Of a DNA stretch of 9,090 nucleotides, positions 6,448 through 9,090 are shown piece after piece. Both the position numbers and the translations under genes were made by a program. The notes below the pieces were generated by a model. The model saw only the letters and a list, made by a program, of their open reading frames with translations. It did not search any database and was not told where the DNA came from. The stretch comes from Candidatus Altarchaeum sp. (GTDB lineage: Archaea; Altiarchaeota; Altiarchaeia; Altiarchaeales; Altiarchaeaceae): NCBI GenBank assembly GCA_018260755.1, contig JAGTWP010000051.1:1-9090 (forward strand), read 5' to 3'. Positions within the stretch are counted from its first letter, which is position 1. Every line of letters begins with the position of its first letter.

Positions 6448-7713
6448 CTATGCTGTTCCTTCCTCCCACGAGTTCAAATATTTTATCTGTTCTTCTGTAA
6501 GTTTATCGATCTCAATATTCATTGTTTTTAATTTCAGGGCGGCTACCCTTTTATCAATTTCTTCGGGAATTTTATGGACGCCTTTTTCCATTTTATGTTC
6601 TGCAATATATTGGACACCCAACGCCTGATTTGCAAAACTCATATCCATTACCTCGCTCGGATGGCCTTCGGCAGCAGCAAGATTAACTAACCTTCCTTCC
6701 GCAAGCAAATAAATTTTCCTCCCATCCTTCAAAACGAATTTTTCCGTATTATCTCTTATCGTTTTCCTGCTTACCGACATTTTTTCCAGATCCGGAATTT
6801 TTATTTCATTGTTAAAATGTCCTGCATTTGCAAGTATTGCTCCGGACTTCATCCCTTTCATATGCTCCCCGCGAATAACATTTAAGTCCCCTGTTGTCGT
6901 AATAAAAATATCACCGAAATGTGCCGCATCATCCATTTTCATAACTCTGTATCCGTCCATAGCGGCCTCAAGTGCTTTAACAGGATCAACCTCCGTAACA
7001 ATAACATTTGCTCCCAAACCGTTCGCCCTCATCGCTACGCCTCTGCCGCACCATCCGTAACCTGCAACAACAACATTTTTACCCGCTATCAAAACGGATG
7101 TCGCTCTTAAAACCCCGTCTAATGATGACTGTCCTGTTCCATACCTGTTATCAAAAAAATGTTTTGTCATAGCATCATTTATATCAAGAATGCCGTATTT
7201 TAATGCATTATCCTTTTCCATTGCCTGTAATCTTACTATTCCTGTTGTTGTTTCCTCGCATCCGCCTTTAATATTTTTGATTAATTCGGGTCTTTCTTTA
7301 TGGATTACCGTTACAAGATCGCATCCGTCGTCAACAGTAATATCCGGATTATGGTCAAGAACATCATTTATACATTCATAATATTCTTTTGTTGATAGTC
7401 CTCTCCATGCATAAACATTAACTCCTTCACTCGCCAGTGCCGCCGCAACATCATCATGTGTTGATAACGGATTACAGCCGGCAATGACAACCTTAGCCCC
7501 GCCTGCAATTAGTGTTTTGACGAGAACTGCTGTTTCCTTTGTCACATGTAAAGAAAATCCGACTGTTAAATTTTTTAACGGTTTTCTCTTTTCAAATTCC
7601 TTTTTTATTTCCATCAGAACAGGCATGTGATCTTCCGCCCATTCAATCTTGTTCTTTCCGCTTTCTGCGAGATTTATATCCTTTACTTTATAGTCGTTTT
7701 TAGACATTTTCAA
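6448..7713 (-). CDS. ahcY: adenosylhomocysteinase
   Basis: NAD-dependent cytosolic enzyme that splits S-adenosylhomocysteine, the by-product of all SAM methylations, into homocysteine and adenosine. Some archaeal members prefer S-inosylhomocysteine, which cannot be judged here. The 421 residues are normal for the archaeal/Thermotoga-like type. Landmarks are SLHVTKET with His56, Asp129 in VDDG, GCEETTTG at 151-158, Lys184/Asp188/Asn189 in TKHFFDN, the NAD-binding GYGWCGRG at 218-225, and NAGHFNNEI with His299. The C-terminus ends LTEEQIKYLNSWEEGTA and lacks the Lys-Tyr (HYRY-like) tail of bacterial and eukaryotic enzymes. ATG 7713 is used, but the ATG two codons later (7707) is equally possible. 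It is preceded by an AT-rich leader with three 17-bp repeats and by a structured RNA on the same strand. Confidence 0.95.
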   Translation of the reverse strand: MKMSKNDYKVKDINLAESGKNKIEWAEDHMPVLMEIKKEFEKRKPLKNLTVGFSLHVTKETAVLVKTLIAGGAKVVIAGCNPLSTHDDVAAALASEGVNVYAWRGLSTKEYYECINDVLDHNPDITVDDGCDLVTVIHKERPELIKNIKGGCEETTTGIVRLQAMEKDNALKYGILDINDAMTKHFFDNRYGTGQSSLDGVLRATSVLIAGKNVVVAGYGWCGRGVAMRANGLGANVIVTEVDPVKALEAAMDGYRVMKMDDAAHFGDIFITTTGDLNVIRGEHMKGMKSGAILANAGHFNNEIKIPDLEKMSVSRKTIRDNTEKFVLKDGRKIYLLAEGRLVNLAAAEGHPSEVMDMSFANQALGVQYIAEHKMEKGVHKIPEEIDKRVAALKLKTMNIEIDKLTEEQIKYLNSWEEGTA

Positions 7714-7840: not shown

Positions 7841-7988
7841 ATTTGTCCCTCTACCGCGAGCATCTGTTATCATTTTTTTATCTAACAGCGATTATAGTGA
7901 GGGTTTTATTTTTGTTCCCTTGATTTAACACCTGCGGTCATCTGAAAACTTTTTTGTTTCTATCGGCAAGTTGACCTAATCAAGGGCG
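7841..7988 (-). ncRNA. candidate two-hairpin H/ACA guide RNA (RNA-2)
   Basis: A GC-richer island with two hairpins, each followed by ACA on the - strand. Hairpin 1: stem CCCTTGATT/AATCAAGGG (7978-7986 with 7917-7925, 9 bp); upper stem CTTGC/GCAGG (7966-7970 with 7931-7935, using a U-G pair possible only in this orientation); an apex with GATAGAAAC and GTTTTC; ACA at 7913-7915, 15 nt from the upper stem. Hairpin 2: stem CCCTC/GAGGG (7899-7903 with 7847-7851); upper stem CTGTTA/TAACAG (7883-7888 with 7864-7869); loop GA...TGA, as in a K-loop that binds L7Ae; ACA at 7844-7846, then three bases. The pocket strand GCTCGCG complements CGCGAGC before U2580 of 23S rRNA (E. coli numbering, from memory), and AATC can pair with the following GGUU. 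Either a separate RNA or the leader of ahcY. Confidence 0.6.
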
Positions 7989-8000
7989 CAGTTAAAATTG

Positions 8001-8010
8001 TATTTATAAT
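8001..8010 (-). promoter_or_regulatory. TATA box of RNA-2
   Basis: ATTATAAATA on the - strand, centred near 8005, predicts a start near 7980-7985, at the 5' arm of hairpin 1 of the candidate H/ACA RNA (7986). This supports a - strand transcript beginning there. Confidence 0.45.
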
Positions 8011-8277: not shown

Positions 8278-8399
8278 TTTTGGTAGTGATAAAGATGTAA
8301 TGATATTTTGTAACAATTTTATGTATTTTAACCTTTCCCATTATTGAATTTTGGTTTAAATATTAAATTTTATCATTACTTGCTTAGCACTACCTAAAA
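8278..8399. mobile_element. MITE-like element with imperfect 24-bp terminal inverted repeats
   Basis: The left end GGTAGTG (8282-8288) and GTAATGATA (8297-8305) are matched perfectly in inverse by TATCATTAC (8371-8379) and CACTACC (8388-8394). The two 8-base spacers also agree in part, so the ends are about 20/24 identical, with TTTT/AAAA outside. The interior of 65 bp is AT-rich and non-coding. No transposase, and no clear target duplication. Alternatively a long hairpin RNA with a symmetrical 8x8 internal loop; the lack of ACA beside the lower stem speaks against an H/ACA RNA. Confidence 0.5.
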
Positions 8400-8418
8400 T
8401 AAAAATAAAAATAAAAAT
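8396..8418. repeat. AAAAAT hexamer run
   Basis: Four consecutive (A)AAAAT units beside the right end of the element at 8278-8399; a simple sequence repeat. Confidence 0.5.
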
Positions 8419-8454
8419 GGTAAAAAATAAAAATAATATTTAGAAAAAATGTAA

Positions 8455-8555
8455 GTAACTATTCAGAGGGTACAAAAATTTACCTACGAAAATTTCAAAA
8501 AATACAAAAAAATCAAAAAATTTACTCGTAATTTTTTGGGTGGCTGAATAGTTAC
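8455..8555. mobile_element. 101-bp MITE-like element
   Basis: Perfect 12-bp terminal inverted repeats, GTAACTATTCAG at 8455-8466 and CTGAATAGTTAC at 8544-8555, enclose an A-rich interior with an internal repeat of AAAATTTAC. The size and clean ends suit a non-autonomous element, and TAACTATTCAG-type ends resemble insertion-sequence ends. No clear target duplication is seen at the flanks. Confidence 0.5.
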
Positions 8556-8564
8556 GAATATTTA

Positions 8565-8606
8565 TTTTAAATATCTGATTTTAAATATCTGATTTTGAAT
8601 ATTTAT
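8565..8606. repeat. 14-bp tandem repeat, three units
   Basis: TTTTAAATATCTGA at 8565-8578 and 8579-8592 is exact, with a third degenerate unit TTTTGAATATTTAT at 8593-8606. Confidence 0.65.
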
Positions 8607-8612
8607 TAGACA

Positions 8613-8681
8613 TGTTGCAAAATAACTTTTTTACCTTTGAATTTTATTGGTTTTCACCTTTAAAATTTTTAATTTGCAACA
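8613..8681. repeat. TGTTGCAAA inverted repeat, 69 bp
   Basis: TGTTGCAAA (8613-8621) and TTTGCAACA (8673-8681) are perfect inverted ends. The interior carries ACCTTTGAATTTT and ACCTTTAAAATTTT as imperfect direct repeats. Small element remnant or hairpin; no coding content. Confidence 0.4.
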
Positions 8682-8811
8682 ACTCTATTGTTATGATATA
8701 TTCACAACAAATATAAATTTTTTCAATCTTAAAAAATAAATTTTTTAGATGGTTTATATATTGTTATGATACGAAATACCGCATAAACGTTATTTAACAA
8801 CAACTCTATTG
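8677..8811. repeat. direct repeats CAACAACTCTATTG and TATTGTTATGATA
   Basis: CAACAACTCTATTG occurs at 8677-8690 and 8798-8811. TATTGTTATGATA occurs at 8686-8698 and 8759-8771. The first copies overlap while the second copies are split and swapped in order, as if a short block had been duplicated and rearranged. 8812-9000 shows no further clear structure and no convincing gene. Confidence 0.5.
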
Positions 8812-9001
8812 AACTTTTGTGTTTTGCATTTTATAGTGTATTTGAACTTGGATTTATATTTGAGTTTGTGCTTGAATTTTAAAATTTGCAAAACTTCAAC
8901 AATGTATTTTATCTCCATCAGTGAAAATCAACATAAGAGCGAAAATATTTGAAATATTTTTAAGATTGAAACTTTATTTATAAATTTTCAGTAAAATTTT
9001 G

Positions 9002-9060
9002 TCACCTCACTTCGTTCGGAGATTTACAAAATGCTTTGCATTTTGTAAGATTGAAAATCT
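9002..9060 (+). repeat. dispersed hairpin repeat, copy C
   Basis: The head TCACCTCACTTCGTTCGGA (9002-9020) is an exact inverse of 4980-4998. It is followed by the perfect 11-bp hairpin TTACAAAATGC-TTT-GCATTTTGTAA (9024-9048). AGATTT (9020-9025) also pairs with AAATCT (9055-9060), enclosing most of the structure. TTACAAAATG recurs at 9075-9084, so more copies may lie beyond the window. Confidence 0.6.
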
Positions 9061-9090
9061 GAATATTTTCAGTATTACAAAATGTTCCAA

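Follow-up and report, generated by a model that had tools for sequence, protein, structure and literature searches.

The locus upstream of ahcY

We analysed a 9,090-nucleotide stretch of DNA (the window) that makes up contig C7 of G000, a genome of the Altarchaeum type; its nearest named relative is Candidatus Altarchaeum sp. HURL_140. An RNA element with two hairpins, each followed by an ACA box, occupies positions 7844–7986 of the minus strand. Downstream, outside the RNA and on the same strand, lies the adenosylhomocysteinase gene ahcY (6448–7713), with about 135 bp between the RNA element and the likely ahcY start codon. This gene adjoins the element in all four Altarchaeum genomes that we compared (G000, G001, G002 and G003).

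Upstream of the first stem lies the TATA-like sequence TATAAATA (approximately 8001–8008, minus strand), a possible promoter element. A preliminary description of this DNA had placed a TATA box about 25 bp before the stem; the TATA-like sequence is present, at a distance of 15–22 bp, and its assignment as a promoter is weak because the surrounding DNA is A+T-rich and the sequence is not strictly conserved among the relatives. The region from 8300 to 9090 is A+T-rich and has no ORF of 60 aa. Close to the end of the window, positions 9039–9084 form a nearly perfect inverted repeat of 46 bases (CATTTTGTAAGATTGAAAAT...ATTTTCAGTATTACAAAATG), which gave a chance match to a miRNA model in an Rfam scan. 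In G001 and G002, the far side of the RNA gene carries a divergently oriented ORF whose tail is rich in Ala and Pro (L037 2–220; L039 1–273, minus strand), which from its appearance we take to resemble ribosomal protein P1/L12.

Anatomy and conservation of the hairpins

Both sequence and folding bore out the preliminary description of two nested-stem hairpins on the minus strand, each followed by ACA. Hairpin 1, including its ACA box (7915–7913), spans 7913–7986 and reads CCCTTGATT-AGGTCA-ACTTGC...GCAGGT-GTTA-AATCAAGGG-A-ACA. The lower stem of 9 bp joins 7986–7978 (CCCTTGATT) to 7925–7917 (AATCAAGGG), a pairing that holds in all four Altarchaeum genomes, and the upper stem joins 7971–7966 to 7935–7930, on the same strand. 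The pocket between the stems provides a 5′ guide, AGGTCA (7972–7977), and a short 3′ guide of 4 nt, GTTA (7926–7929). Above the upper stem is a K-turn region (7936–7965), identified from its sequence, with GA at 7964–7963, TGA at 7940–7938 and an apical stem GAAAC/GTTTTC. The TGA is UGA in the RNA of G000 and G003, and UGG in G001 and G002. We counted 14 nt from the pocket-closing pair to ACA, correcting an earlier count of 15 nt and falling within the 14–16 nt spacing of archaeal guides.

Hairpin 2, including its ACA box (7846–7844), spans 7844–7903 of the minus strand and reads CCCTCACT-ATAATC-GCTGTTA-GATAAAAAAATGA-TAACAG(A)T-GCTCGC-GGTAGAGGG-ACA. Its lower stem (7903–7896/7855–7847) and its upper stem (7889–7883/7869–7862) each have one bulged A. 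The 5′ guide is ATAATC (7890–7895; ATAACC in G001 and G003) and the 3′ guide is GCTCGC (7856–7861). The GA...TGA apex noted previously is an apical K-loop, GATAAAAAAATGA (7882–7870, GA...UGA), which is identical in G001 and G003 and is a predicted L7Ae site. Between pocket and ACA lie 15 nt when the hairpin is in the target-binding register and 14 nt in the minimum-energy fold, both within the 14–16 nt spacing and inside the 14–17 nt range of the preliminary description; the three bases that it set apart after this ACA correspond to no visible feature.

Both hairpins have the stem-pocket-stem arrangement of an archaeal box H/ACA sRNA, with a lower stem of approximately 7–9 bp, and both upper stems carry the K-turn or K-loop expected for L7Ae. 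By published geometry the GA stem has approximately 10 layers and ACA follows after 14–15 nt; an upper stem with a different number of layers is regarded as mostly non-productive unless bulges compensate (PMC4652768). For comparison, each hairpin has approximately 9 pairs and one bulged A, and hairpin 1 of G000 has in addition a C × C mismatch in its upper stem.

Relative to dinucleotide shuffles, the whole element folded with z = −2.56 (1/200 shuffles as good), hairpin 1 with z = −2.55 (3/200) and hairpin 2 with z = −2.82 (1/200). Across the whole window, a strict full-stem ACA descriptor picked out hairpin 1 and one further site, a chance match within gatE; in 2 of 20 shuffled windows it gave one site each. 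Hairpin 2 was missed by this descriptor because its stems are bulged.

Within Altarchaeum, the RNA element is conserved against diverged flanks. All four genomes have hairpin 1 upstream of ahcY, and three of them also have hairpin 2 there, in near-identical form. Column 8/74 of the hairpin 1 lower stem is variously U-A, U-G and C-G across the genus, although four sequences are too few for genus-only covariation to exceed shuffles. The sole change in the hairpin 2 pocket, U to C, converts a guide–target pair from G-U to G-C. In G002 (contig C91; L039 at approximately 915–950), hairpin 2 is mostly deleted and hairpin 1 is intact. A partial copy of the RNA gene, 101 bp long and 88% identical, lies at 1767–1867 on the minus strand of contig C97 in G003 (L040). 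Of hairpin 1 it contains the 3′ half, and of hairpin 2 the 5′ half. A short permease-like ORF is fused at its 3′ end to this copy and takes its last codons from hairpin 1 sequence.

Searches of the class extended the range of hairpin 1. A covariance model found a distant copy in G005, and a guide pattern (GGGTCA-N-GTTA-N-ACA, demanding neither pairing nor the K-turn TGA) found further copies in 14 genomes belonging to other genera, all of which look like single hairpins. Model matches below approximately 26 bits (L128–L132 and L134) were chance or lacked the guides. Among the homologues, 97.9% of lower-stem cells are paired and 7 of the 8 pairs show changes on both sides. The covariation score, calculated after stem offsets (0–4 nt on the 5′ side, 0–1 nt on the 3′ side) had been picked for maximal pairing, was 0.913 compared with 0.257 ± 0.053 for shuffles (0/500), and at most 0.24 when the strands were slid. 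GTTA lies 14 nt from ACA in 17 of 18 homologues, and the K-turn TGA persists in 16 of 18. Folded as single sequences, three class homologues (the first stretch being one base short) gave no significant result alone. The preliminary description had staked its reading on conservation or covariation of the stems in relatives, and both were found, the RNA being kept in four genomes, in one of them without most of hairpin 2, and the lower-stem pairs of hairpin 1 varying on both sides across the class. For hairpin 2, the covariance model gave no clear homologue outside the genus, and a guide-pattern search over the class returned many matches, none recognisably structured by eye. A weak match of this model in G002 (L138) contained no hairpin 2 copy on inspection.

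No Rfam family covers the RNA element in a scan of the window, even at E 10, where only chance matches appeared, and no riboswitch family, SAH and SAM types included, matched at this threshold. Unlike the element itself, two of the class homologues weakly match HgcG (Pab40, RF00064), with E values of 0.0019 and 0.033 and scores of 24.8 and 20.8 bits, below the gathering cut-off of 77 bits for membership of that family.

Predicted rRNA targets and alternative readings

We searched the 16S and 23S rRNA of the organism itself for the complement of each 3′ guide, followed by U-N and then the complement of the 5′ guide. Both pockets have complementarity around an unpaired U-N. The hairpin 1 pocket matches UAAC-U-A-UGACC in 23S rRNA through 4 + 5 bp, all 9 of them Watson–Crick pairs, with GTTA opposite UAAC and the GGTCA of the 5′ guide opposite UGACC. 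The hairpin 2 pocket matches CGCGAGC-UG-GGUU through 6–7 + 4 pairs, with GCTCGC opposite GCGAGC and the 5′ guide opposite GGUU. In its best target register one C-G pair is opened at the pocket, leaving a GA stem of 9 pairs and a bulged A. Alignment with E. coli rrlB identified the target U residues, at positions 1917 and 2575 of the G000 23S rRNA, as U1915 (hairpin 1) and U2580 (hairpin 2), and neither target string varies among the three Altarchaeum 23S copies that were examined. Alternative registers of either pocket had worse or no rRNA targets, or scored equally at no known site.

A match to any rRNA U at the hairpin 1 score is not rare alone, occurring in 166 of 2000 shuffles (approximately 8%), and the corresponding figure for hairpin 2 is approximately 1%. 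When known pseudouridine sites were taken as the U residues aligning with 11 such sites of E. coli or H. marismortui, an equal match at one of them was obtained with 35 of 200,000 shuffled hairpin 1 pockets (1.8 × 10−4) and 116 of 200,000 shuffled hairpin 2 pockets (5.8 × 10−4). Pseudouridine 1915 is known in Haloarcula, and guides for U1915 occur in Pyrococcus, Archaeoglobus, Methanocaldococcus and haloarchaea (PMC2584109; PMC4652768). In E. coli, RluC forms pseudouridine 2580 (PMC7600485), which has also been reported in Halobacterium salinarum; an RluC- or Pus5-type enzyme for this position was not found in Haloferax volcanii (PMC2584109).

The window element is almost certainly a double-hairpin archaeal box H/ACA guide sRNA, and the H/ACA reading of the preliminary description is strengthened by the conservation, the covariation and the complementarity of both pockets to known pseudouridine sites in the 23S rRNA of the same organism. 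From the pocket complementarity, hairpin 1 very probably guides modification of U1915 in helix 69, and hairpin 2 is a likely guide for U2580 in the peptidyl-transferase region; both uridines lie in the ribosome core. Chance hairpins, or a repeat-derived structure in A+T-rich intergenic DNA, could be entertained on the modest individual folding z-scores of approximately −2.5 to −2.8. The class-wide covariation, which no shuffle equalled, the persistence of the element beside diverged flanks and the rRNA target matches make this the least credible account of the locus. Scarcely more probable is a cis-acting ahcY leader, whether a riboswitch that senses SAH or SAM, or an attenuator. Its appeal lies in position, constant upstream of ahcY in four genomes, ahcY being a classical SAH-riboswitch gene in bacteria. 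Yet the parts that are conserved are the guides, the K-turn and ACA, with a match to rRNA, and the hairpin 1 homologues across the class keep the guide sequence and the ACA spacing away from ahcY, which was not found beside them in the flanks read. Together with the lack of a riboswitch model match, this led us to reject the SAH-riboswitch idea.

A more measured doubt concerns hairpin 2, which may be decaying or differently targeted, its U2580 match being coincidental or non-productive and hairpin 1 the sole working guide. Hairpin 2 is limited to the genus and lost in G002, its U2580 register needs the C-G pair to be opened and its 5′ guide is weak in G000. Against this, it pairs at 10–11 positions around a known pseudouridine site, a match reached by 5.8 × 10−4 of shuffled pockets. 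Its sequence hardly differs among three genomes, the one pocket change preserves pairing of the guide, and it has both the GA...UGA K-loop and an ACA spacing of 15. We therefore consider a single working guide unlikely, and favour the reading in which both hairpins act as guides. The deletion in G002 arose naturally and could serve as a test of the prediction for U2580.

Protein partners and comparison with known guides

The genes for Cbf5, Nop10 and L7Ae are encoded in G000 and in all four members of the genus. Gar1 (Pfam PF04410) had no match in the four Altarchaeum genomes; of four archaeal controls, one was likewise missed by this search. None of the four Altarchaeum genomes, which are incomplete, gave a match to the RluA family of synthases (PF00849), and thus a protein maker of pseudouridine 2580 is not evident in the genus. 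The four archaeal control genomes also gave no match to this family, and it is present in 6 of 29 genomes of the class (G007, G012, G013, G019, G021 and G026).

We infer that the element is transcribed, assembles into an RNP and directs two pseudouridine modifications. L7Ae would bind hairpin 1 at its K-turn and hairpin 2 at its K-loop, while Cbf5–Nop10, with Gar1, would bind the lower stem and ACA of each hairpin. The two strands of each pocket would then pair with 23S rRNA on either side of the unpaired U-N (UAAC-U-A-UGACC for U1915; GCGAGC-U-G-GGUU for U2580), and Cbf5 would turn the unpaired target U into pseudouridine.

This kind of RNA is ordinary for archaea, and the gene escapes detection by Rfam; the literature searched yielded no account of an H/ACA guide from Altiarchaeota. 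Hairpin 1 supplies a class-wide family of candidate guides for the helix 69 pseudouridine. Its predicted target is shared with hairpin 3 of HgcG/Pab40/Pf7 (RF00064), hairpin 3 of Afu4, Hvo2 and the Methanocaldococcus L2015 guide, and its architecture of K-turn, pocket and ACA is that of the HgcG/Pab40-type guides (PMC2584109, PMC4652768). Pab40 has three hairpins, whereas in Altarchaeum hairpin 1 is joined to the predicted U2580 guide, and in the rest of the class it stands alone. Among Pyrobaculum RNAs, sR204 and sR208–210 have an upper-stem bulge one pair from the G·A pairs (PMC4652768), like hairpin 1 of G001–G003. The Pyrobaculum H/ACA-like RNAs often lack full lower stems, which the Altarchaeum hairpins keep.

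Hairpin 2 is a concrete candidate source, in an archaeon, of pseudouridine 2580, a modification with no known archaeal maker, although a guide of this specificity for Pyrococcus may already be described elsewhere in the literature. The product predicted for hairpin 2 at U2580 is the same as that of bacterial RluC, which forms pseudouridines 955, 2504 and 2580 (PMC7600485). RluC is a stand-alone protein that works without a guide RNA, unlike the candidate guide described here. On balance, we lean slightly towards the proposal that hairpin 2 is an RNA guide for pseudouridine 2580 of archaeal 23S rRNA, doing by guide RNA what RluC does in bacteria.
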